Positions 4,493-64,000 of a DNA stretch of 64,000 bases are shown here, in pieces (position 1 is the first letter of the stretch; each line of letters begins with the position of its first letter). The position numbers and the translations under genes are program-made. Location of the stretch: the NCBI RefSeq assembly GCF_026151205.1, contig NC_087077.1, positions 12,620,983 through 12,684,982 on the forward strand, read 5' to 3'. The stretch is from Bolinopsis microptera. Taxonomy: Eukaryota; Ctenophora; Tentaculata; Lobata; Bolinopsidae. A model generated the notes under the pieces. It made no database searches. It worked only from the letters and a program-made list of their open reading frames with translations, and was not told the DNA's origin.

Positions 4493-7012
4493 ATAAATTT
4501 ACCAAAGAGGTATGCCCTGTCTGTACAAAATTCATTTCCATTGGCCAATTCATTGCTGAATGTTGTAGGTGTGACTGTGCTATGCACCATAAATGCTATA
4601 CTAAATCCAGTACAAACAAAATATATGAAGATTTTTACTGCCCTAACTGTGTACACTTAGCAAGTACTCGTTACAATCCGTTTATATATGAAGATACTGA
4701 CTCTGAAAATAATAGTACTGACATTGATGAAACACTTGTAAACATCAACCGATTACTCAATAACTGTAACCCATATAGTGTTAAAGAATTTAATAAAACA
4801 TTTTGCAACCAAATGAACGAGTACTCATCATTATTATTTCAAAATATCGATGGTAATAAATCTAACTTTGATACTCTGGCAATAGAACTACAGAGATATA
4901 TGAAATTTTCGATCATTGCTTTAGCAGAAACAAATGAAGGCCCCGAATTAAGTGACCTTTACCAACTGACTGGATACAATAGTTTCTACCAAAACACTTT
5001 GCAAGATAAAAGAAAAGGCACTGGAGTCGCTCTTTATGTATGTGATACCCTCAGTGCTACAGTAAATGGCAATTTGTCCCATATATCTGAAAACCTAGAA
5101 ACTCTATTTGTTACGATAAGCAGCAAGAATACTCCGGTCACTGTTGGTGTAGTTTATCGCCCTCCAAGTGGTGATGTAAATGTTGCATTATTAGAACTCT
5201 CAGCAATTCTCGATAATTTGCCGAAATGCAGTTACCTGGCAGGTGATTTCAACATTGATCTACATAATAAGGATAATGCGATTGTAAAACGTTATGAGGA
5301 AGTCCTGTTCAGTAGAGGATTTTTTCCCCTAATATCTCTGCCAACTCATGAGAAGCCAGGTTGTAAAGCATCGTGTATTGACAATATTATAACTAACGAT
5401 GTAGAGAGTATAATAGCCTCAGGCACACTTACTGATCGTATATCCCACCACTCACCAGTCTTTCAAATATTTGAAAAGAGTATGGGAACCACTAAGAGTA
5501 GCCTAAAATATAAACAGTATTACGACTACTGTAAGTCTAATGTTACCTCTTTTGTAAAGGACTTAGAACATGAATTAGAGAATAAAGTAATTGAAAACTT
5601 CACGATATTTCATGATGTTTTCAAATGTAGTATCGATAAAACGTGTAAGTTGGCAACCCCTAAGTGTTCCAAAAGAACTACACAAAATAACCCATGGATT
5701 ACACCTGGGCTTATAGCCAAAATCAACCATCAGCACCAGCTCTATGACAATTGGGCTAAAGTTAGAAAGAAAAAATGTAAACTTGGTGAAACTGATTATA
5801 AAGGTGGAACATGTCAATGCTTGAAATGTTGTGAAAAACGTTCTAGATACAAAACTTATAAGGATTATAGAAGGATGGTTAAAAAAGATCGCAAAGATGC
5901 TCAAACTAAGTATTTCATGGGAAAATTTGCAGACACAAACGGTAATAGTAAGAAGACATGGGAACTGATTAATCAAATACGGGGCAAACAGAAACGGCAA
6001 ATAAAACCACTGTTTACTATAAACAATGAGAAGATAACCAATCGTAGAGTAATAGCCAATGAATTTAATAAGTATTTTGTTTCTCTAGCGTCTAATTTAA
6101 ACGGGGCATATAATGAAATTGGAGAACTAACTATTAACAATCTTCCTAGTTTTTATGACTACCTGCCTAGAGCAAACACGTCCAGTATTTTCATGAATGA
6201 CTGTACAGCTGACGAGGTTAGAATGATAATATCTGAACTGAAGAATGGGAAGTCATCCGACATCCCAATACACGTAGTTAAAGAATCGTCTAGAGTGATC
6301 TGTCCTATACTATCTTTATTATACAATGAATGCATGAGGAATGGAGTATTCCCAGATGATTTAAAGACTGGGAGAATCAGTCCGATCTATAAGAAGGATA
6401 ATGAGGAATTGCTGGAAAACTATAGGCCAGTATCAACCTTAGCTGTTTTTGGTAAGATATTTGAAAAAATTATTTACAACAGACTGTATAGCTTCTTTCA
6501 GTCCCAGAAAATGATTTACGAGAACCAGTACGGATTTAGAAAAAATCATTCCACAAGCCATGCCCTCAACTCCTCAGTGAATTACATAGAATCCTGTCTT
6601 AGCAAAAAACTGCATGTGCTTGGAATATTTATTGACCTATCTAAAGCGTTTGACACGATCTCACATGAAAAACTACTTAATAAGCTAGACAACTATGGAA
6701 TACGTGGAAACGCCAATAGACTCATCGCTAGTTATCTCTCTAATAGATATCAATATGTCTCTGTACTGGGCGAAGAGTCTGACAAGCTGCCTGTTCTCTT
6801 TGGAGTTCCACAAGGCTCTTGTCTCGGACCCCTGCTATTTATAATATATGTTAACGACTTATTTAGAACAACTGATCTGGGCAAGTTCATACTATTTGCA
6901 GATGACACAAACATATTTGTAGTAGATGAATGTAGAAAAAAACTGTATGAAAGAGCAAACGAAATTCTCCGTTTGTTACACCAGTACATGAAATGCAACC
7001 TATTACATATAA
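4489..7012 (+). pseudogene. LINE-A polyprotein, first part (zinc finger, endonuclease, RT); split by an insertion
   Basis: CR1/Jockey-like non-LTR retrotransposon ORF. Residues about 7-55 form a PHD-like Cys/His finger (CPVC, then CCRCDCAMHHKC, then CPNC). An apurinic-type endonuclease follows, with LAETNEGPE, GVVYRPPSGD, GDFNIDL and a C-terminal SHHSPVF. The reverse transcriptase has YRPVSTL, FIDLSKAFDTISH, GVPQGSCLGPLLF and the catalytic FADDTN. The frame is broken after codon 841 by a 7.1-kb insertion (7013-14157), which adds a short wrong tail and a stop at 7017. It resumes in the same phase at 14164. Removing the insertion leaves an open frame of 1123 codons including the stop, so the element was intact when it was hit. 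Confidence 0.88.
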
Positions 7013-9692
7013 TATAAACAAAAGCTCTAAGAAACAGATAGTAAACATAGTAAACATTTCTGTCCCCTAATCTTTCTCAAACAAAAGTCATGCAATTTGC
7101 ATACTTCTCCATTTAACTCTATTCTGAGCAATTAACGTTAAATAGTTTAAATCACATAAATTATTTAACGATAATTTTCGGACACTAAGGTCGTGTAGAA
7201 TCAGTGAGAAAAGGTTTGACTGCGGTCTTCCACGCCGCCCTTGAAGCTGTAAGGTGTTGACAGCAAAAACAAGCGACGAATAGGCAGGGCCATCTGTAGG
7301 CCCACGCAGTACATGTCCGAGCATCCTCCACCGACTACAAGCCACTTTAGCTGACAATGGTTCGCTATTGCAGCGTTTATACAAGTTCTTGTTGGAGATG
7401 ATGTGAGGGTATTTGTAATTCAAAATTGATCGCAGATGACGTCTGTGAGCAATAGCTAGTTTTTCCAATACTGATTTAGGGGCAGCCCAGCAAGATGAAT
7501 TGTACATTAAAACGGATACTACCAGAGCCTCATACAACAGAAGCCTCTTGCTCAGAGGGATCTTATGGTTCCAAGCTTTCTTGTATTTGTTAAACGCGGC
7601 ATATCCCAGACATATCCTTCTAGAGGTGTCCTCCTTACTACAAAGCATGGAGCCAAGCGTGATACTCTTTCTCCAGAGCTCGTTCCCTGCAATTGGCTTA
7701 CCCTGATCGTCTTTAGCTCCCTTTTCAGCTAAGTACACATGAGTGAAATCAGTTTTGTCTTCGTTAACGAAGAGATTCCAATCTTTAAGGACTTCTGTTG
7801 CAATAGGCAACAGCTCCCTCAGATTGTCTTCATCTTCATCATTGAAGTCGATATCATCAGCATACTCACTGTCAAGTGGAAGACCAATATCGGTAATAGG
7901 TGGGTTAGGCCTATTCGTTGCAGTTTCAAGCCTGTTACGGAGGTCACGCAAGGCACCCGCTAAGACAAGTGTGAACAAGCATCCAGACAGACAGTCACCT
8001 TGGAATGCACCGAGAAAACTCTGGAATTCAGCAGACAGTGTACCGTTGATGTTGACTTTGAGCTTGGTGTTGGAAAGCAAAAGTCTTACCAAACGGACTT
8101 CGTCATCATCACAGCCACACTCAACAAGAAGATCGAGGATGGTAGATCGTCGTATAGTGTCAAAGGCACTAGACATGTCAATCCCCATGCGATGGTATTC
8201 CCACCTCTTCCTCTGGACAACTGATAACATCACACGCTGGCACCATACAATGTCAGCACATGATCTACCCTGCTTGTAAGCACATTGCCATGGACCAGTG
8301 AAGGCATTGACTTTATTCTCAATTCTCTTCAAGGTTGCCATTGAAAGAATCTTTCTAACAGCATTTGAGAGAGTGAGGGGTCGTAGATTCTTCACTGGAC
8401 CAATGGGCTTATTTGGCTTCTGTAAGGGGGTAATGTTTGCCTGTCCAATGGGGTCAAGGTAGGAATTGGTCTCGAAGCTTCTATTGATAATGTCTGCAAA
8501 ACGTCTGTGTACTGATCCAGTAGAATACTTGAGAAGCTCATTAGGAATCCCATCTGGGCCGTTAGCTCGACCATTTTTGAGACTTCTAGCAGCTGATCCG
8601 ATTTCTTCACTAGTGAATGGCTTAACTAGTGGGCGAGGAGGTCCTACAAAAGGTTCTAAAGGTGCTTCATCACGAGTAAGTTGTTGCTCAAGGTACTTAG
8701 CAACTACGGCAGCTTTACCAGTGTCTGTTGCAATATTGCACCCTTGCTCATCATGAACACCAATACTAGAAGGGGCTTTACTTTTAGGTAAGTTCAGGGT
8801 TCGAACAGCTTCAAACATTTTCTTACTATCTGTTGTTGAACTGATGGTATTACAGATAGCATCAGCAGCAGCTGATCGTATGTTAGAAAGTCTCTGCTTG
8901 ATCTGATTGGTGAGGCAGTTAATAGATGATCTAAGTGAGGTTCTGTCTAAAGACTGGTTATCATTAAGCTGCTGTCTCAACAAGTAACGCTGGCTAGATA
9001 AGTTTTTCACCTCATCATCGTCGCTGCGATTACGTTTCCTGTGTCTGATGACACCAATTGACGATTTTGCAGCATCCTTTATGGACTCAAGTAAGCCATT
9101 CAAGTCTGAATTTGGATCCAGAGCAGAAACAGTGTTACTTAAGTTATCATCTAAGGATTGACGATATTTCACCTGAATGGTGGGGTTCGAGGTGAGTTCA
9201 GAGGTGTTGAACTTTAAGGATGACTTGGAGTGGCGTTTATAGCAAAGACAGATGTCCTTAAAATCTACTCTAGTGACAACAAATCTGTGATCAGAGTATG
9301 TCAAGGTGCCTGCATAAGATCTAGAATCTTGTAGCATTGGCTTCGACCTACTTCGACACAGGATGAAATCGATCTGAGAATAGACCGGGATCGTCTTTTT
9401 ACTATTTCGCCCGGCACTCCAGTCCTTCCTCCAGCCAGTGTAGGTGGTCGTATGTCGGGCAGGATGATAAAAACCAGTGTTGGAGGCAAAGAGGTCAAAT
9501 TCTGATAACAAGTCTAACAAGTTTTCTCCCATATCGTTGCGCAAACCCATACCATGTTTACCCATGAAACGACCAAAACCAAAGTCCTTATCTGAAGCAG
9601 TCATTTTTCCCAACTTTGAATTAAAATCTCCCAAAACAAATATCTCAACATTAGCAGGGACGTTTAGAGCGTCCCTAACTTGGCCGTAAAAA
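7013..9692 (-). mobile_element. LINE-B (RTE-like), 3' portion with RT
   Basis: Minus-strand RTE-like LINE inserted in LINE-A. The coding frame runs from 9692 down to a stop at 7088. It starts in the endonuclease (GDFNSKLGK, then IDFILCRSRS, then TYSDHRFVV). The RT region has GRANGPDGIPNELLK, then MGIDMSSAFDTIRR, then GAFQGDCLSG and YADDIDF. It ends in the RTE-type C-terminus (ISNKNLYKRCNSEPL, RWRMLGHVLRG, GRRGRPQSNLF). No stop interrupts it. The 75 bases after the stop are the 3' UTR. ATATAA at 7007-7012 and 14158-14163 is the target-site duplication. The frame is interrupted at GQV by LINE-C. Confidence 0.85.
9676..9692. repeat. Left target-site duplication of LINE-C
   Basis: TAACTTGGCCGTAAAAA occurs here and, identically, at 13964-13980. 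The 17-bp perfect duplication marks the exact ends of LINE-C (9693-13963) inside LINE-B. Confidence 0.93.
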
Positions 9693-9740
9693 AAAAGTTT
9701 TAATACTTTCAACACTACTATATAACAAATAATTTGAGGT

Positions 9741-10649
9741 ATGACACGCGGAAAGAGTACACGATCCAGAAATGTCAAGAGAAGTCCAGAAAAGATCGGT
9801 GGGACAACAGATAATGGTGAAATTGACGACGAAGAAGATCGCAGCTGTGAATGTAGAAAATATATTGAGGAGGAGTTTTCTTTGGCATGTGCAACTTGCG
9901 AAATGTACTGGCACTACTGCTGTGTTGGGCTTACAGGATTAACGCAGGAAGAAGGTGACCGCTTGACTAACTGGCGCTGCCAAAATTGCTTTATCTCCCC
10001 CCACATCAAGGGCACAAGGAGCCAGTCCACAAATCCAGACAGCGAAGAAACCAAGACCCTGAGAAATGTTATTAGAGAAGAACTTGAGGCCCTAACTCCG
10101 TGTATCAGAGGAATTGTTGAAGATTCTGTGAGTCATACCAGTTCTTCTAATGATTCATCTGAAAAACCAAAAGAAATCACAAAAATAGTGAACCAGGCTT
10201 TCAAATCCTGGGCAGATGTGACTGCAAATAGTCAAAAGAAAGTTATTGAAGAAATGAGCATACAGCAAGCTTCACAAAGTGTTGTCAGTAAAGTTCAGAC
10301 AAAGATGCACACTGATGCATATGAGCGGAATTTAAGGAAGCTCAATCTGTGTGTTTTGAATGTACCAGAGAGCAAGAAAGCTAACTCCAAGCTACGTCAG
10401 GAAGAGGACTCGAATTTCTGCAAGGAGACATTAAAGATTGAAAAAAGTGACTTTATCAGTTGCCATCGTGCAGGTAAAGTGGATTCAGACAAGCCAGACT
10501 CCTGTCGGCCATTGATCATCCAGACAGCTGACCAGGAGTCAGTTAACTATTATTCCAACCATGGCAAGGGCTGGAAAGAGTCATCATACTGGATAAATCT
10601 GGATCTCTGCAGAGCAGACCGAGAGATCCGTTTTTTAGCCAGAGAATAG
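9741..10649 (+). CDS. LINE-C ORF1, PHD-finger protein
   Basis: A 302-aa ORF beginning 48 bases after the element's 5' end. Residues about 32-80 form a PHD-type finger: CECRKYIEEEF, then CATCEMYWHYCCVGL, then WRCQNC. A helical, charged middle region follows. The segment LRKLNLCVLNVPESK, with later ISCHRAGK and RPLIIQT, looks like the RRM-like/CTD part of LINE ORF1 proteins, which chaperone the RNA. The TAG at 10647-10649 is followed in frame by a Lys/Glu/Arg-rich stretch of about 20 codons ending in TAA. The TAG may therefore be a recent nonsense change rather than the ancestral end. Confidence 0.82.
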   Translation: MTRGKSTRSRNVKRSPEKIGGTTDNGEIDDEEDRSCECRKYIEEEFSLACATCEMYWHYCCVGLTGLTQEEGDRLTNWRCQNCFISPHIKGTRSQSTNPDSEETKTLRNVIREELEALTPCIRGIVEDSVSHTSSSNDSSEKPKEITKIVNQAFKSWADVTANSQKKVIEEMSIQQASQSVVSKVQTKMHTDAYERNLRKLNLCVLNVPESKKANSKLRQEEDSNFCKETLKIEKSDFISCHRAGKVDSDKPDSCRPLIIQTADQESVNYYSNHGKGWKESSYWINLDLCRADREIRFLARE

Positions 10650-10741
10650 AGGAAGAAGAGGCGGGAAGAAGCAGAGAAGAAAAAGACAGAGAAGAAGGCG
10701 GAGAAGAAGTAAATAGCAGTAACAAAGAATGTAGTCAACCC

Positions 10742-13700
10742 ATGAATATTTTTTATACTAATGCTAATGGACTATTTAATAAAATTGATGAACTAAAATG
10801 TATTCTATCAGTTTATAAATCTATTCATGTAATCTGCATTACAGAAACTCATTTTAATAGTGATATTTTAGATGCTGAAATTTTTATTGAAGGTTTTAGT
10901 ATGTTTAGAAAAGACAGAGATTTTAAAATCGATAACTCCACTAGCAACATAAGTGTAGGTGGAGGTTCTATTATTTATATTAAAAACAGTTGTAATGCGT
11001 CATTAGTGAGCTCATTTTTAAGAGCACCAGACTCTTTAGCTATTAATGTCAATACCTCCGGTGGATTGATTAGTATTTGCTGTATTTATAGGTCTACTTC
11101 TTTGAATTTAGAACAGAACAATATGTTATTATCTTGCATCAAGAACATATCTAGTGAAAAGAATGTTTTTGAAACCATTATCATAGGAGATTTTAACCTA
11201 CCTAATGTATCATGGGAAACTGGTAGTGTAAATAGTGGTTTTTCTAGTAAGAATCAGGTTTTAATGATTCAACAAAAGTATATTGATTTATTTAATGACA
11301 GTGGTTTGACGTGGTACTTTACTAACGAAACAACCAGAAGACGGCTTGTGAAAGATACTCTCCAGGAGAGTCTTCTTGATCAGGTTTTGTATACAAATGA
11401 TGCTCTTGTCAACGGTTGTAAGATCGTTTCTCCGCTTGGCAAAAGTGATCATGTTGGGATACTTGTCGAACTGGTTGTTTCGCCCAATACTAACAAAAGT
11501 CCCAAACAAAAGATTTTAAAGCCTATTTGGGGTAAGATTTCCTCAGAAGAGTTACTTAACTTTAGTATGAATAATATTGACTGGGATTATAGTTGTAAAA
11601 ATAATGTTCAAGATATGTGGGTTGAACTACATAGTAAATTGGAGTCTGTTGCTGCAGCTGTCCCAGCTGCTTCGGTTTATCTCGACAACAGACCTGTCAA
11701 GTTGCCATGGAGTACAACTGCACTTAAAAGAATGAGGAAGAACAAGGACAGAGCATGGGCTGAATTTGATATTAATCCTTCTTATATTAACTTGAGCTGT
11801 GCAAATAGCAAGCAGCATAATTTTGAGGTGGCAGAGATTAAAGCTAAAGTAAATTATGAAAAGAAGATTACAGCTAATTTAAAACAGAATTGTAAATCTT
11901 TTTACTCATATTTGCGTAATAAACGTCAAGTGAAATCAAGTGTTGTTTCTTTGGATAGAGGAGATGGTACACGCACAGATAGTTCATCTGAGTCAGCTGA
12001 GGTACTTGCTAGTGCCTTTAGTTCTGTGTTTGTGCGTGAACCACCTGGCCCTCTTCCCCAAAATGAGAGTTATAACAAAGAGGTGATTGATGATATGGAA
12101 ATTAGCAGTTCTGATATCAAGAAGCAGCTTTTAAAGCTTAATGTTTTTAAGGGTTCTGGTCCGGATGGCGTTCATCCGAAGTTGTTGAAATCCTTAGCAT
12201 ACGATGAAATGTTTGTTGAAGCTGTTACTAAATTATTTGTTAAATGTTCAGAAACAGGAGTCCTGCCTGACATTTGGAAGACAGCATCTGTTGTAGCATT
12301 ATTCAAAAAGGGTGTTAAATCTGATCCCTTAAATTATAGACCTGTCTCATTAACTTGTATTTTGTGCAAAGTGTATGAAAAGTTGGTGAGGGCACATTTA
12401 TTAACATTTTTAGAAGAACGAATTTCAAAGCATCAGCATGGATTTGTGAAGGGTAAATCTTGTCTATCTAATCTCTTAGAGACATTTGATAATATTCTTG
12501 ATATTTTAGACGAAGGTGCTCCTGTTGATCTTTTGTATTTTGATTTTAGTAAGGCTTTCGATACAGTCCCCCACTTTAGACTTCTATCTAAATTGGAGGG
12601 GTTTGGGGTCAAGGGAAAAGTTTTAGATGTTATAAAAGACTTTCTGACAGACAGAACCATGAGGGTTTGTGTAGAAGGACAATGGTCTGAGGTGAAACAC
12701 GTATTATCTGGTGTTCCCCAGGGGTCAGTATTAGGTCCTTTGTTATTTATTCTTTATATAAACGATTTACCTGACAATGTTAAAAATAAGATTAAATTAT
12801 TTGCAGATGATCTCAAGTTAGTTTGTAATGCAGCTAACCATAAAAGTGTATCTGATGATATTTTAGAACTCGAAATTTGGGAGAGTATTTGGCACTTAAA
12901 CTTCAATCCTGCCAAGTGTAAAGTAGTCCATATTAATCTGAATAATAATCCTAACTCGAATTATATTGTAAATGGAGTAGAACTAGAAGTATCTGCACAG
13001 GAAAAAGATTTGGGGGTTATTACCCATAGCTCCTTGCTTTGGAATGAACAGATAAAAGCATGTATTTCTAAAGCAAATCGTATGATCTGCTGGATTGTAA
13101 GGAACTTAGTTATTAGAGAAAAAGTTGTAATGATAGCTATTTATAAAGCTTTGATAAGACCTCATCTTGAGTATTGTGTCCAATTGTGGAATCCAGTTGC
13201 GGCTCATGGAAGTTGGGGGACTGTTTTGGAGCTGGAGAGCGTCCAGAGGCGGTTTACCCGTCTTATTGATGAGGTGGGTACTCTTCCATACAGCCGTAGA
13301 TTGGATATCCTCAATTTGACAACGCTGGCAGAGCGGCGAATACGTGGGGACCTTATTGAAGCTTTTAAAGTAACTAGTGGTTTGACTGAATATGGATCGG
13401 GTTTGTTCAGAATGAGCAGATCTGGTCTTAATCTAGTTTCAACCAATAGGTGTAGTAAGAGTGTAACTAAAGTCAAGAATCTCCAGTCTTCTTTTCTTCC
13501 GGAGCGAGTCATTCCTTACTGGAACAAACTCCCTTCAGATGTCAAGAACTGCTCGACAGTTTTAAGCTTTAAAGTTAGGTTGGAAGGATTTAAGAAAGAA
13601 ATGATTTCTAAAAACAGTGTAAATGATTTTTATTTTTGGAATGTTTCGAACGAAGTTTTAGGGAAAATTGAAGGACCCAGTTATTTAAGCAATAAGGAGA

Positions 13701-13780
13701 CACATAATGAATATCTTTGGTTTCATCCTTTTGTGGCAAAGAAACGTTTTATAAATCTTTATTCCACTGGGAAGTTTTAA
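10742..13780 (+). CDS. LINE-C ORF2, endonuclease and reverse transcriptase
   Basis: An uninterrupted 1012-aa ORF of a CR1/L2-group LINE. The N-terminal endonuclease begins MNIFYTNANGLFNKIDELK and carries CITETHFNSD, IYRSTS, IIGDFNLPNVSW and LGKSDHVGI. The RT domain has GSGPDGVHPKLLK, NYRPVSLTC, YFDFSKAFDTVPH, GVPQGSVLGPLLFILYIND and catalytic FADDLKL. The C-terminal part has YKALIRPHLEYCVQLWNP and YSRRLDILNL, typical of CR1-like elements. All catalytic motifs are present, so this copy could supply activity if ORF1 works. The 92 bases between ORF1 and ORF2 are mostly the purine-rich ORF1 tail. Confidence 0.92.
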   Translation: MNIFYTNANGLFNKIDELKCILSVYKSIHVICITETHFNSDILDAEIFIEGFSMFRKDRDFKIDNSTSNISVGGGSIIYIKNSCNASLVSSFLRAPDSLAINVNTSGGLISICCIYRSTSLNLEQNNMLLSCIKNISSEKNVFETIIIGDFNLPNVSWETGSVNSGFSSKNQVLMIQQKYIDLFNDSGLTWYFTNETTRRRLVKDTLQESLLDQVLYTNDALVNGCKIVSPLGKSDHVGILVELVVSPNTNKSPKQKILKPIWGKISSEELLNFSMNNIDWDYSCKNNVQDMWVELHSKLESVAAAVPAASVYLDNRPVKLPWSTTALKRMRKNKDRAWAEFDINPSYINLSCANSKQHNFEVAEIKAKVNYEKKITANLKQNCKSFYSYLRNKRQVKSSVVSLDRGDGTRTDSSSESAEVLASAFSSVFVREPPGPLPQNESYNKEVIDDMEISSSDIKKQLLKLNVFKGSGPDGVHPKLLKSLAYDEMFVEAVTKLFVKCSETGVLPDIWKTASVVALFKKGVKSDPLNYRPVSLTCILCKVYEKLVRAHLLTFLEERISKHQHGFVKGKSCLSNLLETFDNILDILDEGAPVDLLYFDFSKAFDTVPHFRLLSKLEGFGVKGKVLDVIKDFLTDRTMRVCVEGQWSEVKHVLSGVPQGSVLGPLLFILYINDLPDNVKNKIKLFADDLKLVCNAANHKSVSDDILELEIWESIWHLNFNPAKCKVVHINLNNNPNSNYIVNGVELEVSAQEKDLGVITHSSLLWNEQIKACISKANRMICWIVRNLVIREKVVMIAIYKALIRPHLEYCVQLWNPVAAHGSWGTVLELESVQRRFTRLIDEVGTLPYSRRLDILNLTTLAERRIRGDLIEAFKVTSGLTEYGSGLFRMSRSGLNLVSTNRCSKSVTKVKNLQSSFLPERVIPYWNKLPSDVKNCSTVLSFKVRLEGFKKEMISKNSVNDFYFWNVSNEVLGKIEGPSYLSNKETHNEYLWFHPFVAKKRFINLYSTGKF

Positions 13781-13963
13781 TTAATTATTTATATATAATG
13801 CATTAGATTTTATTAATTAATAAAATTGAATTTAATAAATTATTAATGTTGATGGAAGAATATATCTATTTGAATTATTTTTCTATTTAGTGCAATGATA
13901 TTTTTTTAGACACTTGTGATGATGTAATGTCATAATATTTACTTACTTACTTACTTACTTACT
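13781..13963 (+). mobile_element. LINE-C 3' UTR and ACTT tail
   Basis: AT-rich 3' UTR ending in about six ACTT units (13940-13963), directly before the right copy of the 17-bp duplication. A short tandem 3' tail rather than poly(A) is characteristic of CR1/L2-type LINEs. Confidence 0.85.
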
Positions 13964-14157
13964 TAACTTGGCCGTAAAAATTAATCAACAGTTGTTGATC
14001 ATTTTCTGCAAGTTTCTTGTGTGGCCCATATACATTGACCACCCTACATTTGATAAATTTTCCAGATTTTGTAGGGAGTTCTAGGTCCAAAAAGCTTACT
14101 CGATCACTGATACTGTTCCAGCATACCACATAGTCAATAAATCGGGGACTGATAACT
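13964..14157 (-). pseudogene. LINE-B, 5'-truncated endonuclease portion
   Basis: The minus-strand translation contains FIDYVVCWNSISDRVSFLDL, then CRVVNVYGPHKK and INFYGQV. This is endonuclease sequence that continues in frame at 9675 on the far side of LINE-C. It begins abruptly in the middle of the domain at 14157, the signature of 5' truncation during target-primed reverse transcription. Confidence 0.82.
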
Positions 14158-15008
14158 ATATAAATATAAAGAAATGCTGCTACATTCACTTCAAGCCGTC
14201 ACGTACAGCTACTGATAATGAGGCAGATAACGAATCAGAATACATACTAACTCTGAATAATACGGTAATAAAGCAAGTTAAAGAGACCAAGTTTTTAGGT
14301 GTTATTATTGACGAAAAGCTAAAATGGGATGTTCAAATAAGAGCCCTCAACTCGAAACTTAGATGTGAGATCGGAAGACTCAGTAGAATACGACATGTTA
14401 TCCCGAAAAAACACCATAAAGAATTGTACCACACGTTATTTGAGTCTCACCTAAGATTTGGAATATCGGTATGGGGTGGGTCGAGTAACAATATGCTTCA
14501 ACCTATCTTCATCACTCAGAAAAAATGTATCAGAATACTATTTGGTGACCTTGAAGCATATCTAGATAAGTTTAGAACATGTGCCAGAACACGTTGTATA
14601 GATGAACAAATCCTAGGAAGGGAATTCTTTGAAAAAGAGCATACAAAGCCGTTGTTTAACAAGAACGGCCTTCTTACCGTCCACAACCTGTACAAATACA
14701 CATGTCTATTAGAACTGTTCAAAATTGTCAGATTAGAATCTCCAATCTCACTCCTATCTTTACTCCACAGATCACCATCACAAAGACGTTCAGACCAGTT
14801 CATCACCCCGAACCCATCCTCCTCTTTCATTTATCAATCAACAAAAATGTGGAACGACTGTCGAAAAATTGACAGTTTGATAAGCTTTACTAAGTCAACA
14901 AACTTAGTTAAAGTAACACTGAAAAGTGAGCTACTCAAGATACAGTCCAGGTACGAAGAATTAGAATGGACAGAATTAAACTTCGATAAGAATGAGCTTG
15001 TGTTTTAA
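14158..15008 (+). pseudogene. LINE-A polyprotein, C-terminal part
   Basis: Resumes the LINE-A frame after the ATATAA duplication. It contains KQVKETKFLGVIIDEKLKW, then ELYHTLFESHLRFGISVWGG, then QKKCIRILFG, the post-RT region of Jockey/CR1-like ORFs. The stop is at 15006-15008. No frameshift or stop is seen in this part. The adjacent 15009-15300 is the probable 3' UTR. Confidence 0.88.
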
Positions 15009-17705: not shown

Positions 17706-18069
17706 ATAATTATAGAATTACAATTTTAGAATTACAATTGAAATTACCCAAAAAATAGTATTGTTTACCCGGCACACCAATTTCAATGCGTGGAGCACTT
17801 TTCGAGATTTTCGTATTGAGAGATGCGAGCAATATATATGATAGAGCAATATATATTATAGAGCAATATATATAATAGGCCAGCAAGCTAAGTAACCTTA
17901 CTGTGTACTGGCTGGACCTATCTCCTAAAATAGAAAATAGAGACTTCCGGTTTTTGCAAAATGTTTGCCTCATTGCTCATAAAAATCACGTTTCCCTCAG
18001 GGGGAAATTTGGGACAATGTTTAATGTAGATTAATTAAGTTGTCCCAAAAAAAAAGTCTTTGGCAGAAT

Positions 18070-18097
18070 GGCGCAGTTTATATCTCCGCCAAAAGCA
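18070..18097 (+). repeat. Left terminal inverted repeat of the Foldback-like element
   Basis: 28 bp, perfectly matched in inverse by 25644-25671. A CACGCGCAT motif nearby (18112-18120) has an inverse partner near the right end, at about 25619. Confidence 0.9.
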
Positions 18098-18269
18098 AAT
18101 TTGTAAGCACTCACGCGCATTATATCCAAATGTGATTTTAAATTTTCGCATTGGATCGTTGCACATTGGATGGTTGCTATGCCGCGCCCTGCAGCATCTT
18201 CAATTGAGACCTTCGCCCCGCATTTAAGCTACTCGTCTGATATGATACCTTTATTTTTTAACTGTTAAC

Positions 18270-18504
18270 AGCTTATTTTTTAAACATTTGATCAATTATT
18301 CTGTCTTATTTTGTTCCATTTTAAACTGTACGATTAATTGTGAGTGTGTTTTATATACATTTGAGTTCACAGTTGTGAACTTTATTTTCAGTATTTTATG
18401 TGACAGACATTAGTTTAACTAATATTTGCTTCTCCTAAATCAGCTTATGTTTAACATGTGATCAATTATTCTGTCTTATTTTGTTCCATTTTAAACTGTA
18501 CGAT
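18270..18504 (+). repeat. Direct duplication preceding the left array
   Basis: The block TGATCAATTATTCTGTCTTA followed by TTTTGTTCCATTTTAAACTG occurs at about 18289 and again at about 18459. It lies between the left terminus and the first 79-bp unit. Confidence 0.75.
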
Positions 18505-18517
18505 CAGTTGTGTATGA

Positions 18518-21016
18518 AAATTATAATGATTGTCACGAGATGTTTGATCTAGTTATTAGAGTTGAGCTAATTCTAGTCCTTGTTATGACAGTATTAAAAC
18601 TGTAATAATTGTCACGAGATGTTTGATCTAGTTATTAGAGTTGAGCTATTCCTAGTCCTTGCTATGACAGTATTAAAACTACAATAGTTGTCACGAGATG
18701 TTTGATCTAGTTATTAGAGTTGAGCTATTCCTAGTCCTTGTTATGACAGTATTAAAACTACAATAGTTGTCACGAGATGTTTGATCTAGTTGTTAGAGTT
18801 GAGCTATTCCTAGTCCTTGTATGACAGTATTAAAACTAAAATAATTGTCACGAGATGTTTGATCTAGTTATTAGAGTTGAGATATTCCTAGTCCTTGTTA
18901 TGACAGTATTAAAACTACAATAGTTGTCACGAGATGTTTAATCTAGTTATTAGAGTTGAGCTATTCCTAGTCCTTGATATGACAATATTAAAACTACAAT
19001 AATTGTCACGAGATGTTTGATCTAGTTATTAGAGTTGAGCTATTCCTAGTCCTTGTTATGACAGTATTAAAACTACAATAGTTGTCATGAGATGTTTGAT
19101 CTAGTGGCTAGAGTTGAGCTATTCCTAGTCTGTAGTCCTTGCTATGACAGTATTAAAACTACAATAGTTGTCACGAGATGTTTGATCTAGTGGCTAGAGT
19201 TGAGTTATTCCTAGTCCTTGGTATGACAGTATTAAAACTACAATAGTTGTCACGAGATGTTTGATCTAGTTATTAGAGTTGAGCTATCCCTAGTCCTTGC
19301 TATGACAGTATTAAAACTACAATAGTTGTCACGAGATGTTTGATCTAGTGGCTAGAGTTGAGCTATTCCTAGTCCTTGCTATGACAGTATTAAAACTGTA
19401 ATAATTGTCACGAGATGTTTGATCTAGTTATTAGAGTTGAGCTATTCCTAGTCCTTGTTATGACAGTATTAAAACTACAATAGTTGTCACGAGATGTTTG
19501 ATCTAGTTATTAGAGTTGAACTATTCCTAGTCCTTGATATGACAATATTAAAACTACAATAATTGTCACGAGATGTTTGATCTAGTTATTAGAGTTGAGC
19601 TATTCCTAGTCCTTGCTATGACAGTATTAAAACTACAATAGTTGTCACGAGATGTTTGATCTAGTGGCTAGAGTTGAGCTATTCCTAGTCCTTGCTATGA
19701 CAGTATTAAAACTACAATAGTTGTCACGAGATGTTTGATCTAGTGGCTAGAGTTGAGTTATTCCTAGTCCTTGCTATGACAGTATTAAAACTACAATAGT
19801 TGTCACGAGATGTTTGATCTAGTTATTAGAGATGAGCTATTCCTAGTCCTTGCTATGACAGTATTAAAACTACAATAGTTATCACGAGATGTTTGATCTA
19901 GTGGCTAGAGTTGAGCTATTCCTAGTCCTTGCTATGACAGTATTAAAACTACAATAATTGTCACGAGATGTTTGATCTAGTTATTAGAGTTGAGCTATTC
20001 CTAGTCCTTGTTATGACAGTATTAAAACTACAATAGTTGTCACGAGATGTTTGATCTAGTGGCTAGAGTTGAGCTATTCCTAGTCCTTGCTATGACAGTA
20101 TTAAAACTACAATAATTGTCACGAGATGTTTGATCTAGTTATTAGAGTTGAGCTATTCCTAGTCCTTGTTATGACAGTATTAAAACTACAATAGTTGTCA
20201 CGAGATGTTTGATCTAGTTATTAGAGTTGAGCTATTCCTAGTCCTTGTTATGACAGTATTAAAACTACAATAGTTGTCACGAGATGTTTGATCTAGTTAT
20301 TAGAGTTGGGCTATTCCTAGTCCTTGATATGACAATATTAAAACTACAATAATTGTCACGAGATGTTTGATCTAGTTATTAGAGTTGAGCTATTCCTAGT
20401 CCTTGCTATGGCAGTATTAAAACTACAATAGTTGTCACGAGATGTTTGATCTAGTGGCTAGAGTTGAGCTATTCCTAGTCCTTGCTATGACAGTATTAAA
20501 ACTACAATAGTTGTCACGAGATGTTTGATCTAGTTATTAGAGATGAGCTATTCCTAGTCCTTGCTATGACAGTATTAAAACTACAATAGTTTTAACGAGA
20601 TGTTTGATCTAGTTATTAGAGTTGAGATATTCCTAGTCCTTGTTATGACAGTATTAAAACTACAATAGTTGTCACGAGATGTTTAATCTAGTTATTAGAG
20701 TTGAGCTATTCCTAGTCCTTGATATGACAATATTAAAACTACAATAATTGTCACGAGATGTTTGATCTAGTTATTAGAGTTGAGCTATTCCTAGTCCTTG
20801 TTATGACAGTATTAAAACTACAATAGTTGTCACGAGATGTTTGATCTAGTGGCTAGAGTTGAGCTATTCCTAGTCCTTGCTATGACAGTATTAAAACTAC
20901 AATAGTTGTCACGAGATGTTTGATCTAGTGGCTAGAGTTGAGCTATTCCTAGTCCTTGCTATGACAGTATTAAAACTGTAATAATTGTCACGAAATGTTT
21001 GATCTAGTTATTAGAG
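18518..21016 (+). repeat. 79-bp satellite array, left arm (about 31 units)
   Basis: Tandem units of about 79 bp, each containing GTCACGAGATGTTTGATCTA, then GAGCTATTCCTAGTCC, then ATGACAGTATTAAAACTA. Units vary at a few positions, for instance TTATTAGAG versus GGCTAGAG. One unit near 19131 carries an extra TAGTCTG. Variant units recur in runs, which suggests block duplication. Confidence 0.95.
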
Positions 21017-21053
21017 GAGGACTAGGACTAGGAATATCTCAACTCTAATAACT

Positions 21054-22679
21054 GAAGAAGTTGGCCGTGCTGTTATGAAGCTGAAATCCGGTAGAGCGTG
21101 TGGCCCTGACGGTATACCTAATGAGCTAATGAAAGCTGCTGGATATCCCCTCCACTATGAGTTGGCTAGGATCTACAATCTCTCCTTTGAGACCAACACA
21201 TACATCCCAGCTATTGGAGAAGGTATCCTGACACCCCTTCAGAAGCCAGGAAAACCCCGAGGTCCGGTAAAGTCTATCCGGCCCCTCACATTGCTAAATG
21301 GAACTCGAAAAAGTCCTATCCCTCGTAGCCTTGAACAGAATCAATTACCACGTTGATATGTACACTGGACCTTGGCAGGCGGCATACAAGCAGGGTCGCA
21401 GTTGTGCTGACCTGGTTTAGTCTCAGAGAATGTTGACATCAGTGGTTACCAGGCGCGAGTTTGAGTATAGTAAAATCAACATTGACATGACCGCTGCGTT
21501 TAATACCATCCGCAGACAGACCATCATCAACCTCCTCATTGATGCAGGATGCTCTAGAGACGACATTCGCTTGGTTCAGTACCTCCTCTCAAATACAAAG
21601 CTCAAGGTGACGGTCAACAGAGCTGAGTCTGGTGAATTCGTGATTAATATTGGAGCTTACCAGGGAGACAGTCTGGCAGGTAAAGTGTTTACATTGACCC
21701 TTGCCGGTGCCCTGAATCACATCAGAGCCGTGATCAGTGTCACAATTCCTAGACCAAACCCCCCAGTCTCTGATAGAGGCCTCCCGTTAGAGTCCGCCTA
21801 TGCTGACGATGCTGAGCTTCTGAGTGAAGATGGTCAGAGTCTGGTGAAGATACTAGAGATTGCTAGTGACATACTAAAGGACTGGAGCCTCTTTGTTAAC
21901 GAATCAAAGACGGTGTTTACAAGAGTGTATTTGGCAGAGACAGATGCTTTGGATGCCCATGGCAATAAAATCAGAGGAAATGAAGAGTGGCGAGAGTCAG
22001 TGCTATTAGGATCAAAGCTCTGTTCAGAAAGAGATATTGTCAACAGACGCAACAAAGCCAATGTTGCCTTCTACACCTACAAGAAAGTCTGGTTGAATAG
22101 TTCTGTTCAGATCAGTGAGAGTAGAAAGCTGAAGTTGTACGAAGCTCTTGTCACTTCAGTGTTGTTGTATAACTGTAGCAGCTGGGCTACTCCTGAAACC
22201 GTAATGGCATCTGTCGACGTTCTTCAAAGGAAGCATCTGAGACAGATAATCAACACCTATTGGCCTACGGTTATCAGTAACGAGAACTTATATAAGAGAT
22301 GTAATGTCAGTCCCCTTACTGAAAGGATCAAGAAAGCACGATGGAAGATGCTTGGGCACGTTCTCAGAAGCGGTGATGACACTCCCGCTTTCTTATCTTT
22401 TAGATTTGCATGTTTAGGATGTTTTGATTACAAAGGAAGGAGGGGCAGACCTCGTTCAAATTTATTTGATTTATTAATAAAAGACATTATGACGAAGAAT
22501 ATTATTGTGATTGTAAATAAAAGATTTAGTTTAAGTAATTTCAACGATTTAGTGTACAAAGCTCATGATAGACGCTTATGGAGAAGCTATGGGTGAGTCG
22601 AGACTACTCGGCCACTCGATTTTATGATTTATTTCCTATTATCTTGTGTTTGCTGTATATAGTTGATTAATAATAATAA
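21054..22679 (+). pseudogene. RTE-like LINE fragment inserted beside the palindrome apex
   Basis: A 1626-bp 5'-truncated LINE related to LINE-B. It opens inside the RT at MKLKSGRACGPDGIPNELMK (21075). A frame break or stop near 21350-21420 separates this from the long open part at 21430-22596, which has NIDMTAAFNTIRRQ, then GAYQGDSLAG, then YADDAEL and ISNENLYKRCNVSPL, RWKMLGHVLRS. It ends in an AAT-repeat tail. TAATAACT at 21046-21053 and 22680-22687 is the target-site duplication, so the LINE landed inside a satellite unit of the right arm. LINE-B is clearly related but diverged. Confidence 0.87.
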
Positions 22680-24906
22680 TAATAACTAGATCAAACATCT
22701 CGTGACAATTATTGTAGTTTTAATACTGCCATAGCAAGGACTAGGAATAGCTCAACTCTAATAACTAGATCAAACATCTCGTGAAAATTATTGTAGTTTT
22801 AATATTGTCATATCAAGGACTAGGAATAGCTCAACTCTAATAACTAGATCAAACATCTCGTGACAACTATTGTAGTTTTAATACTGTCATAACAAGGACT
22901 AGGAATAGCTCAACTCTAATAACTAGATCAAACATCTCGTGACAACTATTGTAGTTTTAATACTGTCATAGCAAGGACTAGGAATAGCTCAACTCTAATA
23001 ACTAGATCAAACATCTCGTGAAAATTATTGTAGTTTTAATATTGTCATATCAAGGACTAGGAATAGCTCAACTCTAATAACTAGATCAAACATCTCGTGA
23101 CAACTATTGTAGTTTTAATACTGTCATAACAAGGACTAGGAATAGCTCAACTCTAATAACTAGATCAAACATCTCGTGACAACTATTGTAGTTTTAATAC
23201 TGTCATAACAAGGACTAGGAATAGCTCAACTCTAATAACTAGATCAAACATCTCGTGACAACTATTGTAGTTTTAATACTGTCATAGCAAGGACTAGGAA
23301 TAGCTCAACTCTAGCCACTAGATCAAACATCTCGTGACAACTATTGTAGTTTTAATACTGTCATAACAAGGACTAGGAATAGCTCAACTCTAATAACTAG
23401 ATCAAACATCTCGTGACAATTATTGTAGTTTTAATACTGTCATAGCAAGGACTAGGAATAGCTCAACTCTAGCCACTAGATCAAACATCTCGTGACAACT
23501 ATTGTAGTTTTAATACTGTCATAACAAGGACTAGGAATAGCTCAACTCTAGACACTAGTTCAAACATCTCGTGACAACTATTGTAGTTTTAATACTATCA
23601 TAACAAGGACTAGGAATAGCTTAACTCTAGCCACTAGATCAAACATCTCGTGACAACTATTGTAGTTTTAATACTGTCATAGCAAGGACTAGGAATAGCT
23701 CAACTCTAATAACTAGATCAAACATCTCGTGACAATTATTGTAGTTTTAATATTGTCATATCAAGGACTAGGAATAGTTCAACTCTAGCCACTAGATCAA
23801 ACATCTCGTGACAACTATTGTAGTTTTAATACTGTCATAACAAGGACTAGGAATAGCTCAACTCTAATAACTAGATCAAACATCTCGTGACAATTATTAC
23901 AGTTTTAATACTGTCATAGCAAGGACTAGGAATAGCTCAACTCTAGCCACTAGATCAAACATCTCGTGACAACTATTGTAGTTTTAATACTGTCATAGCA
24001 AGGACTAGGAATAGCTCATCTCTAATAACTAGATCAAACATCTCGTGACAACTATTGTAGTTTTAATACTGTCATACCAAGGACTAGGAATAACTCAACT
24101 CTAGCCACTAGATCAAACATCTCGTGACAACTATTGTAGTTTTAATACTGTCATAGCAAGGACTACAGACTAGGAATAGCTCAACTCTAGCCACTAGATC
24201 AAACATCTCGTGACAACTATTGTAGTTTTAATACTGTCATAACAAGGACTAGGAATAGCTCAACTCTAATAACTAGATCAAACATCTCGTGACAATTATT
24301 GTAGTTTTAATATTGTCATATCAAGGACTAGGAATAGCTCAACTCTAATAACTAGATTAAACATCTCGTGACAACTATTGTAGTTTTAATACTGTCATAA
24401 CAAGGACTAGGAATATCTCAACTCTAATAACTAGATCAAACATCTCGTGACAATTATTGTAGTTTTAATATTGTCACAGCAAGGACTAGGAATAGCTCAA
24501 CTCTAACAACTAGATCAAACATCTCGTGACAACTATTGTAGTTTTAATAATGTCATAACAAGGACTAGGAATAGCTCAACTCTAATAACTATATCAAACA
24601 TCTCGTGACAACTATTGTAGTTTTAATACTGTCATAGCAAGGACTAGGAATAGCTCAACTCTAGCCACTAGATCAAACATCTCGTGACAACTATTGTAGT
24701 TTCAATACTGTCATAGCAAGGACTAGGAATAGCTCAACTCTAATAACTAGATCAAACATCTCGTGACAATTATTGTTGTTTTAATACTGTCATAACAAGG
24801 ACTAGGAATAGCTCAACTCTAGCCACTATATCAAACATCTCGTGACAACTATTGTAGTTTTAATACTGTCATAACAAGGACTATAGGAATAGCTCAACTC
24901 TAATAA
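22680..24906 (-). repeat. 79-bp satellite array, right arm (about 28 units, inverted)
   Basis: The same unit as at 18518-21016 on the opposite strand (TAGATCAAACATCTCGTGAC, TTTTAATACTGTCATA, GGACTAGGAATAGCTC). The arm starts at about 21017 with a partial unit, before the LINE insertion, and resumes at 22680. The extra 7-bp variant (GACTACAGACTAGG, near 24160) mirrors the rare variant in the left arm. Confidence 0.95.
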
Positions 24907-25643
24907 ATTCTATTTGTTGTTATGACAATAATATAACTCAGAATGTTAACAAGTTTTTGAAAAGACTGTAGAAGAAGATATCATGCCTCATTCGTTGGAG
25001 TTCTCAGACCCGTCGACACTCTACTGCACAATTTCTAAGAAGAGGGTTGATTTCCTCAAAATGGGAAACAGGAGAAAGAGCTACAGACCATCAAGGCAGA
25101 ATTAAAAGAATCATTTACCTAATACTTTTTAACAGTCACAGAGTTTTATAATAAAACTTTGTAAGAATTTTGATCGTTCTTTAAAGTTGTGTTTTGTTAA
25201 CATCATATTTTGTATTTCTCGACTCAAAAAAATCATTATTATATAACAAACGAATCTTTTATCATTAAAGCATTTCATGCTTTACTGCCGGTTTACTATA
25301 CGACTGAAGTGCACAATTGTATGGAAAAGTAAATTTATTCTCAATAATACGAGAGGAGGTGTTCTAACCAAATTGTACTAATATCACCCCGTAGGTATAC
25401 CGGTACCGGTACACCGTAGGTACCGGTTTATTCTCTACTAAATATCGCCCATGTATAATATCGTCTCCCATGCTATTAATGTGCCAAGTTCGAATTCGGT
25501 TTCTTGCACTTTACTTATATATAATATTTTGCTTCCTATAAACTGGTATGTTAGGAAGCAAAAGAGGCTGTTTAATGTAACTTCAGGAAGGCGCGACTGT
25601 GAAAATAGTTGAGAAAACTACGCGCATTAATGCTAAAATGTGA
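24907..25643. other. Right inner flank of the Foldback-like element
   Basis: Unique AT-rich sequence inside the right terminus, with a palindromic ACCGGTACCGGT region (about 25400-25412). A short open stretch (about 25000-25145) has no recognised domain. It is not an inverse copy of the left flank. Confidence 0.4.
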
Positions 25644-25681
25644 TGCTTTTGGCGGAGATATAAACTGCGCCTTGGCAGAAT

Positions 25682-26321: not shown

Positions 26322-27657
26322 CAGGCACGTAGCCAGGGGGGGGCTAGGGGGGCGGCAGCCCCCCCCCCGGAAAAAATCGAACCCCAGAAAAAAGATAAGC
26401 CCCCTAGTCCCCATGGTCGCCTGGTAACTGGGCTGTGTTTATGACTGCAGTCAGTCAAAGATTTGAACTGTGGATTAGTAAATATATGTCATTAAATCCA
26501 AGCAAACATTCTAGAAGACTTCTATAATTATCTCATTAAACTATATAAAAAATAAGTATAAAGAATAAGGAAAAGGAACGGGAATGAAGCCAATACCAGA
26601 AGTGAAACCCCACCAAAGAATAATTGATCCTTAGGTAGACCTGGTGAAATAAAGTAACTGAACTGTAAGTTTAAGAAAAGACGGAAGGAATAAAGGAGAG
26701 AGGAAATAATGTAATGTGAACATCATCAGCAGATGACTTGGCACACCGGTTTTGGGGGTTTAATACCTGTACCGGTTTAATGTGCCAAGACCCCCTAGCA
26801 ATCACTCGTCAGTGATCACCTGTTCACGTTAAATGTGATGTCAAGGATGTCGCTGACATCAAGTATACTGTATTTGTACAGAATACTAGGTCGGTCTTTC
26901 AGAAGCTTTCTGAATTTACTCTTCAGGAGTCTGTCATTATAACATCTTGAAAGAAGTGTCCTATAAAGGGTGTTGGTAGAACACAGAAAAGAATCAAGGT
27001 CAGAGATAATGGAAGAGTAACGAAGGACCTGACCGTAAAAAACATTATAACCAACAGAAGAGGAAATATTACTGTTAGGAAAGGTGTACATGACCACAGG
27101 AAAGTTGAAGTCATCAAGTTTGTTGTAAAGCTTGGTGGCGACGTGTCCGGAGTTATTCATCGAGATGTTGATGTCGAGATAGTTTACGGACTTATTGTCG
27201 TCACCACTCCTCTCCATAAGCAGGTCAGGTGGATAAATGGACCTGATTAGGTTAGTCAATAGTGTCAATAGTGTCCCCTAGACCGTAGGAAATGTAAAAA
27301 TCTTAAGACGATGAGGCCTGAGTAAGTCGTAAATTCTGATTGGAGAATGCAGATTACTGTTGTGAAGTTACCAAATTTACGTGAGTACTTGATTCTTTTC
27401 AATCCCAGTTTATTGCTGTCCTACAAATTTCTTTAATGCCAAATGTCGTCTAAAACACCCTGTTTCGCAAAAAATTTCCGGGGGGCTGCGCCCCCCTAGC
27501 CCCCGCCAAGGGGCTCCGCCCCTGGACCCCGCTGGGGGCTGCGCCCCCAGACCCCTGCCACAGCTTGCTCGCTTCGCTCGCTGCGCAGCTTCATTGGACG
27601 CGTCGGCTCGCTTTGCTCGACAGCCCCCCTCAAAGAAAAATCCTGGCTACGTCCCTG
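26322..27657. mobile_element. hAT-type non-autonomous element
   Basis: Ends CAGGCACGTAGCCAGG and CCTGGCTACGTCCCTG are inverse copies with one mismatch. They are flanked by ATGTGCCG at 26314-26321 and 27658-27665. CAGG-type ends plus an 8-bp duplication fit the hAT superfamily. The subterminal regions are poly-G and GC hairpin-rich (about 27480-27600, repeated GGGGCTGCGCCCC-like stems). No transposase is present. A reverse-transcriptase-derived ORF remnant lies inside at 26816-27268. Confidence 0.85.
26816..27268 (-). pseudogene. Reverse-transcriptase-associated ORF fragment inside the hAT element
   Basis: A 150-aa minus-strand open frame with NYLDINISMNNSG, then YNKLDDFNFPVVMYTFPNSN, then VGYNVFYGQVLRYSSI. 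It resembles the region just after the RT core in an invertebrate RT family with motifs of the type LDLxISxxNG and DKRDDFNF, possibly Penelope-like. It lacks the catalytic RT core. It may be captured cargo or an older insertion. The family assignment is tentative. Confidence 0.45.
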
Positions 27658-45820: not shown

Positions 45821-50321
<4,501 letters not shown>

Positions 50322-63651: not shown

Positions 63652-64000
63652 AGGCGGATCATGTTTTTTGTCCGTTCGGTACCCTATATTTTCAAAACGG
63701 ACAAAAAATAGAGCGGACAAAAACGGACAAAAATGGACAAAAACGGACAAAAATGGAAATAACATTTAGATGCTTCCTCCTCCTACTCTTCCTCCTCCTC
63801 CCCCTGGGTCTTCCTGATCTTCCTCAGTCCTCTTCCTCCTCCCCTCCTCAGTCCTCCTCCTACTCCTCCTCCTCGTCCTCAGTCCTCCTCATCAGTCCTC
63901 AACAGTCCTCCTCCTCCCCAGTCCTCTTCCTCCTCCTGAGTCCTCCTCCTGGGTCCTCCTCCTGGGTCTTCCTCCTCCTCTTCATCCTCCTCCTCTTCCT
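63652..64000 (+). mobile_element. GGA-array element, copy 2 (inverted, runs off window)
   Basis: Inverse of 56671-56785 (GTCCGTTCGGTACCCTATAT, then AAAACGGACAAAAA units, then GAAATAACATTTAGATGCTT). It is followed by a CCT-rich pyrimidine array, the inverse of the GGA array, to the window edge. Confidence 0.75.

Follow-up and report, generated by a model that had tools for sequence, protein, structure and literature searches.

How does a transposon come to carry a satellite in two opposed arrays that meet head to head, and do the copies of such an element share one turning point? This question is raised by a stretch of 64,000 nucleotides from the ctenophore Bolinopsis microptera (contig NC_087077.1, positions 12,620,983 to 12,684,982; "the window" below means this whole stretch), in which a 7,602-bp element at 18070-25671 holds two inverted arrays of a 79-bp unit. 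We searched the genome (264.65 Mb in 232 sequences) for its relatives; the window sits on a contig of 20,932,313 bp (C6), and contig C14 has 198,114 bp, which is consistent with 13 large sequences. The element was confirmed to belong to a mobile family, and the turn between its arrays is not one old inversion, as it differs between most copies. The explanation that we prefer, and consider likely as a whole, is that the element is a non-autonomous member of a cut-and-paste family of Mutator-like elements (MULEs), foldback in shape, whose palindromes arise by internal deletions that join older opposed arrays. Our confidence is higher for the MULE family and lower for each of the mechanistic steps set out below.

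A mobile family and its transposase-bearing relative

The element is bounded by perfect copies of the 10-bp sequence TTGGCAGAAT, which occurs on the plus strand of the window exactly twice, at these two edges, and on the minus strand not at all. The direct duplication claimed in the original prediction is therefore exact. Just inside it, the element ends are perfectly inverted over 28 bp. With up to three mismatches allowed, this 28-mer was found in the window only at the two ends, and none of 100 shuffles contained two sites, which confirms the predicted terminal inverted repeat (TIR). Tandem Repeats Finder (TRF) likewise recovered the inverted arms as two period-79 arrays of opposite orientation (Table 1). 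The longest inverted pair, 18822-20618 and 22680-24476, spans 1,797 nt at 97% identity. The element had also been described as a near-perfect palindrome; this holds for the opposed arrays but not end to end, because the left flank (414 bp) and the right flank (737 bp) that follow the TIRs are different sequences. Inversion is limited to the 28-bp ends and the arrays.

We searched the genome with bases 1-27 of the TIR, allowing up to three mismatches, and found 81 forward and 88 reverse sites (169 in all), and none with the reversed control. Twenty copies were examined, 19 retrieved ones and that of the window. They were chosen from the listed sites as pairable (two ends, or one end with a matching flank), so that the share with target site duplications (TSDs) is that of paired copies and not of all 169 sites. 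TSDs were present at 18 of the 20 copies, nine of 9 bp and nine of 10 bp, 17 of them perfect and one with a mismatch; their A+T content was about 80%. In copy L049 a TA repeat has replaced the right end; L055 has both ends, and a TSD was looked for there and not found. The predicted recurrence of paired termini was thus borne out, and the TSDs at 18 of 20 copies identify the family as mobile. Fifteen further TIR loci, viewed over 1.5 kb on each side, included two short pairs with a TSD, one perfect and one with a mismatch. A 21st element (L074), retrieved without its left end and free of the 79-mer, was excluded from all counts. MULEs typically generate TSDs of about 8-11 bp, a range that covers the 9 or 10 bp found at 18 of the 20 copies. 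For the element Muta1, the accessible part of the literature gives 8-9 bp.

Loci L063 and L064 on contig C8 together form a 14,090-bp copy (C8:7881748-7895837) with the same TIR and a perfect 10-bp TSD; over its terminal 107 bp it is identical to the window element's right end. Its minus strand contains open, exon-like frames. A SWIM domain was detected above its cut-off (E 7.8e-9), and the MULE domain (PF10551) scored 26.8 bits (E 7e-6), 0.8 bits short of the Pfam cut-off of 27.6. The joined exons had 24 protein relatives (24-34% identity, best E 1.2e-20); according to precomputed domain assignments, all 24 contain PF10551 and 21 contain PF15299. In an alignment with eight of these relatives, the motifs DATYK and CDFH were invariant, and TTNGVE or a close form was present in all six that reach that far. 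An element with the same termini therefore carries a MULE-type DDE transposase, with the reserve that the domain lies below its cut-off and that this is one copy. The search for such a transposase between these termini was successful to that extent, and the paired termini, the 9-10 bp TSDs and the exons of the related copy uphold the label of a foldback/MULE-like transposon. FLYWCH, the N-terminal zinc finger by which the Phantom subclass is recognized, gave no match at E 0.01 in the joined exons, where a first exon may have been missed. One 73-residue transposase exon occurs in the genome once at 100% identity and in at least six other places at 31-50%; none of the latter had a TIR site nearby among the 100 of 169 sites listed.

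The family also includes very short forms. L066 is a miniature inverted-repeat transposable element (MITE) of 449 bp, 414 bases of which match the right end (417 bp) of the 14,090-bp copy at 97%. Judged from this alignment, it is an apparent internal deletion of the 14.1-kb type.

The 79-bp satellite is nearly confined to this family. A 21-base core of the unit, with at most one mismatch, matched the genome 603 times (control: none), and 577 of these matches lay within the retrieved family loci. At least 12 of the other 26 fell in two further family elements on contig C4, with 14 remaining. Of the 20 copies, 16 carry arrays; 13 of these have both arms, two have the right arm only (L050 and L059, the latter without any left unit anchor) and one has the left arm only (L060); L065 and L066 have no units. 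The longest arms reach 50-53 units. The transposase-bearing copy carries about 1.6 units (129 bp; matches of 108-128 bp at 86-91% identity), which adjoin left-flank-related sequence and have the orientation of the left arm. These units and the 577 of 603 matches in family loci support the suggestion that the satellite is linked to a transposase.

Beyond its 79-mer, at about 8329-14241, the 14,090-bp copy contains about 11.5 copies of a second tandem unit of about 513 bp at 99% identity, part of which is related to the window element's left flank.

Turning points and arms

Thirteen copies have two arms. In L051 and L058 the arms are separated by other sequence; the remaining 11 turn directly from plus to minus units, the window copy having later been split by a long interspersed nuclear element (LINE). 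These 11 direct turns represent nine different joins; L053 has its turn in common with L054, and L057 with L061. The join of the window copy contains a filler, and at the other eight the units overlap by 8, 1, 1, 1, 2, 3, 2 and 4 bases. The joins of L049 and L062 were read by eye; the single base of L049 was confirmed by a check, and the four bases of L062 rest on the reading. The turn of L047 is a perfect palindrome. Among the one-armed copies, again read by eye, L060 joins its left array to the right flank, and in L059 the minus array is preceded by a remnant of about 20 bases of a plus unit.

An excess of microhomology at the joins was considered and withdrawn. A control with consensus units and exact matching had suggested it (mean overlap 2.75, reached in one of 20,000 simulations, against 0.75 expected). 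When random joins of real units were scored as loosely as the observed ones, P was 0.23 for the eight joins, 0.22 for the six automated ones, 0.29 with the window join entered as 0 and 0.43 without the palindromic L047.

Comparison of closely related copies indicates how quickly these structures change. L053 and L054 are sisters whose flanks are 99.9-100% alike (one of 760 bases differs on the right, none of 270 on the left). They share the turn and the adjoining units, yet one has 31+13 units and the other 50+9. There is thus one flank mismatch in approximately 1,030 bp while the arms differ by 19 and 4 units. L047 and L048, with flanks 99.1% and 99.6% alike, have different turns. Provided that the assembly is correct, the flanks of these pairs change far more slowly than their arrays and turns.

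We compared the units of the two arms in the 11 two-armed copies that have nine or more units in each arm. In the window copy, the arms were strongly mirrored over 836 bp (99.3%; Table 1). In the next 943 bp, 49 mismatches reduced the identity to 94.8%, with random unit pairs at 93.6%. Counted from outside inwards, left unit i corresponds to right unit i+1; the mirror thus keeps register with the outer ends and is displaced by about five units from the turn near 21016. The register score weighted for rare variants was 69.1, compared with 42.2 (sd 5.1) in permutations, and none of 500 permutations reached it; by plain identity, six of 1,000 did. In L048, three of 500 permutations reached the observed score, in one of 11 tests. 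A mirrored register was not detected in the other nine copies by the same test (rare-variant weighting, whole registers), and a cruder test, open to short registers as well, gave no excess for any of these 11 copies. The longest exact matches do not single out the window copy either, being 281 bp between its arms and up to 437 bp between copies.

Each arm of the window copy contains one 86-bp unit within the mirrored stretch, the eighth from the outside on the left and the ninth on the right. The arms thus do share unit variants, including the rare one with seven extra bases, as had been noted. L048, L050, L057 and L060 have 86-bp units too, but with other 7-base insertions; that of the window was seen only in the window copy. 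The mirrored stretch looks like the result of a later exchange between the arms. Of the two origins proposed for the likeness of the arms, upkeep by conversion is supported in the window copy and less clearly in L048, while the other nine copies gave no sign of it. Comparison of units across the arms led us to reject a full mirror about 21016, the register running from the outer ends and being strong over 836 bp only.

Outermost left units share rare variants between copies (score 5.8 vs 0.7; 66 pairs, 12 copies) and outermost right units do so to a lesser degree (1.8 vs 0.7; 78 pairs, 13 copies), but there is no match between the outermost units of opposite sides (score 0.65). Because variants are common within a side and not across sides, the common ancestor of the copies probably had both arms, each with its own edges. 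Units beside the turn had an identity of 0.945 (best of five registers, 11 copies), compared with 0.939 for all left-right pairs. In this direct comparison of averages, the largest excess was 0.025, in L047. As turn-side units are on average hardly more alike than any pair across the arms, back-copying of one arm is probably not what produced the present turn. The other proposed origin, by inversion, is for the present turn unsupported by these values and by the different turns among copies.

Several copies contain further repeats or inserted sequence. L052 (G000:C5:11756100-11765250), which lacks the 79-mer, has a 57-bp satellite at locus positions 1671-2885 in two opposed arrays (15.3 and 5.5 copies) that also meet head to head, and by eye a piece of this 57-bp repeat stands between the arms of L051. 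Between the 79-mer arms of L058 (G000:C4:12802850-12810050) there are a 13-bp array at 3652-3923 (20.9 copies) and an 11-bp array at 4860-5328 (42.6 copies). In L062 (G000:C5:5750900-5760800), the first unit of the minus array is followed at 6377-7636 by some 1.2 kb of non-array sequence, which closes with 52 consecutive C before the units continue; this is either an insertion or an assembly fault.

Origin of the palindrome

The reading that we prefer would proceed as follows. The 14.1-kb type, or a lost sister of it, would have supplied transposase in trans. The 79-mer may have been amplified inside the element by unequal exchange or slippage, and an early non-autonomous ancestor would already have had two opposed arrays, each with its own outer units. 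After excision or breakage, repair may sometimes have ended early, the two ends being joined without special homology. Breakpoints that both lie in the arrays would produce a head-to-head palindrome, and with one or both outside the arrays a one-armed copy or a short MITE would result. In the window copy, the arms would later have exchanged the 836-bp stretch, and a LINE would have landed beside the turn. The LINE sits beyond the turn inside the right array; the turn is therefore older than the LINE.

Several observations weigh against this account. The transposase-bearing copy has the 79-mer at one place and shares just 107 bp of the right end, so the origin of the second, opposed array is not accounted for. 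The joins show no microhomology signal and therefore point to no single repair pathway. L050 is not a plain deletion, since about 1.2 kb of other sequence replaces its left array. The exons of the transposase, joined by eye, score lower for the MULE domain when joined (24.8 bits, below the Pfam cut-off), and array lengths depend on the assembly.

A more far-reaching proposal, which we put forward tentatively and regard as possible rather than probable, is that the palindrome is a scar formed anew and not a design passed on by descent. In a MULE family that generates its own satellite, interrupted repair would join the opposed arrays in a different phase each time a lineage undergoes it. If this were true, each turn would be a heritable barcode of one repair event, from which transposition could be dated and followed in an animal of an early-branching group.

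Turns could also move by template switching during replication within the long palindrome, for which excision would be unneeded. The filler of about seven bases at the window turn would suit such a process, as would the different turns of L047 and L048 between flanks 99% alike. It does not predict the lack of excess microhomology at the joins, nor the structures of L060, L065 and L066, which resemble ordinary internal deletions that reach into the flanks, and L053 and L054 kept their turn while units in mid-arm changed. On balance we think this explanation rather unlikely.

In another alternative, fold-back copying at a hairpin or a partial inversion would have made the right arm a mirror of the left about the turn. 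The in-register mirror of 836 bp in the window copy with its common 86-bp unit is what this would leave behind, as is the perfect palindrome at the turn of L047; moreover, since the transposase-bearing copy has the unit at one place, there must once have been an inverted duplication or a transfer of some kind. Against it stand the turn-side units, which are not mirror copies in the 11 tested copies, the absence of a detected mirrored register in nine of these, and outermost units that differ across sides and are common between copies within a side. Such copying is unlikely as the cause of the present turns, and as a general account of the arms we hold it to be quite improbable.

We give very little credence to an origin in which a 79-bp satellite already existed in the genome and was captured by the element. 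The similarity of the unit to the termini is not above that of shuffles, which would fit a foreign source, but 577 of 603 unit matches lie in retrieved family loci and the transposase-bearing copy has fewer than two units. On the same shuffles we rejected the idea that the 79-mer represents extra copies of a terminal binding site.

That the assembler joined unrelated one-way arrays or created a false palindrome is scarcely credible for 13 two-armed copies, 11 of which have both TIRs and matching 9-10 bp TSDs and among which two pairs at different loci share a turn, even though the published assembly was built from PacBio data with wtdbg2 and polishing, as far as the accessible part of its description states. 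That part gives 265 Mb, 13 chromosomes and 346 scaffolds, and we assume this assembly to be the same as the one used here, which with its 232 sequences may be a different version.

The window and comparable systems

The features of the element are listed in Table 1. The reverse-transcriptase frame of the LINE fragment extends over 21421-22596; the RVT_1 match (E 2.5e-11) is in the second of two frames, and the first had no family match in the domain search. The fragment has 170 protein relatives at E 0.001, 120 of them listed. By eye, it is flanked by two copies of TAATAACT and lies about 37 bp past the turn, on the side of the right array.

Table 1. Features of the transposon, with positions counted from the first letter of the window
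Feature	Position	Strand	Basis
Left TSD, 10 bp, TTGGCAGAAT	18060..18069		Exact match to 25672-25681
Left TIR, 28 bp	18070..18097	+	Perfect inverted match
Left subterminal flank, with a stretch of about 73 bp present twice	18098..18511	+	BLAST of edges against copies
Left array, 79-bp unit, 32 unit anchors	18512..21016	+	TRF (31.6 copies), unit anchors
Left half of mirrored stretch	18840..19675	+	99.3% to right half, 6/836 mismatches
86-bp variant unit, left arm	19084..19169	+	Position converted from element offset 1014
Turn, plus units meet minus units, filler of about 7 bases	21010..21030		Sequence; filler read by eye
Left copy of TAATAACT, probable LINE target duplication, partly ambiguous with TAA tail	21046..21053		By eye
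LINE fragment, apparently 5'-truncated, in innermost unit of right array	21054..22679	+	RVT_1, E 2.5e-11
Right array, 79-bp unit inverted, 28 unit anchors	22680..24906	-	TRF (28.1 copies), unit anchors
Right half of mirrored stretch	23623..24458	-	6/836 mismatches to left half
86-bp variant unit, right arm	24129..24214	-	Converted from offset 1457 from right end
Right subterminal flank	24907..25643	-	Outermost 107 bp (TIR included) identical in transposase-bearing copy
Right TIR, 28 bp	25644..25671	-	Perfect inverted match
Right TSD, 10 bp	25672..25681		Exact match to left copy

Elsewhere in the window there are other tandem repeats. The hexamer TGTCCC is present in 85.7 perfect copies (TRF) at 49808-50321, a long purine-rich tract of GAG/GAGGAGGACTGAG-like repeats occupies 54928-56664, and a similar pyrimidine tract lies at 63775-64000. 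Minisatellites at 500-925 (23 bp, 18.3 copies) and 58815-59684 (46 bp, 19 copies) are possibly borne by other elements. To the right of the transposon, a 153-aa open frame on the minus strand (26816-27277) resembles, by eye, part of a retroelement polymerase.

The foldback form is also known from FB of Drosophila melanogaster, TU of sea urchin and FARE of Arabidopsis; FB arms consist of short tandem repeats and either adjoin each other or enclose a loop. Long inverted arms of tandem repeats in variable number were found in 13 of the 20 copies studied here. These arms are not inverted out to the termini, where 28 bp match and the flanks differ, so "foldback" is used here as the name of a shape and not of a family. 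FARE is described as combining a MULE transposase with the foldback form. No paper on transposable elements and tandem repeats of Bolinopsis was found in the open-licence literature, and the present family was not found in the accessible part of that literature on ctenophore Mutator-like transposable elements. A single assembly here contains a transposase-bearing relative with fewer than two units, two-armed copies that turn in nine distinct ways (in two cases with a turn common to a pair of copies), one-armed copies and MITEs. Two questions thereby become testable: by what route foldback palindromes arise, and at what rate a satellite turns over within a mobile element.

Our comparison with described systems is limited, for the cited papers, to their accessible parts. 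It was made by description and not by sequence, and we therefore claim no membership of Tetris, Tm1 or Galileo. Galileo of Drosophila has long repetitive TIRs with a changing number of repeats, and exchange between copies has been proposed for it (PMC3573991); by its transposase, however, it belongs to the P superfamily, so that shape alone is common to the two. Tm1, a Mutator/Foldback family of root-knot nematodes, resembles the Bolinopsis family in its composite TIRs, the variable number of tandem repeats, the 9-bp TSDs and the presence of a transposase-bearing class beside MITE-like forms (PMC3169594). Its repeat is about 14 bp and its transposase is of the Phantom type with FLYWCH (PMC3169594), whereas the Bolinopsis family has a 79-bp repeat, a SWIM domain after the catalytic part and no FLYWCH match. 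Tetris of Drosophila virilis, for which its authors suggested the Mutator superfamily, is likewise a foldback transposon with internal tandem repeats (about 220 bp) in its TIRs, TSDs of 8-10 bp, a variable middle and a short deletion relative, DAIBAM (PMC4079207). Whereas the 79-mer is nearly confined to its family, the repeats of Tetris also exist outside it as satellite arrays, and a copy with a transposase was not found by the authors of that study (PMC4079207), in contrast to the transposase-bearing relative with about 1.6 units described here. By description, we would file the window element in a MULE family of foldback shape that appears closest to Tetris and Tm1 in shape and TSDs, and the best reading is that it is a new member of the same kind.

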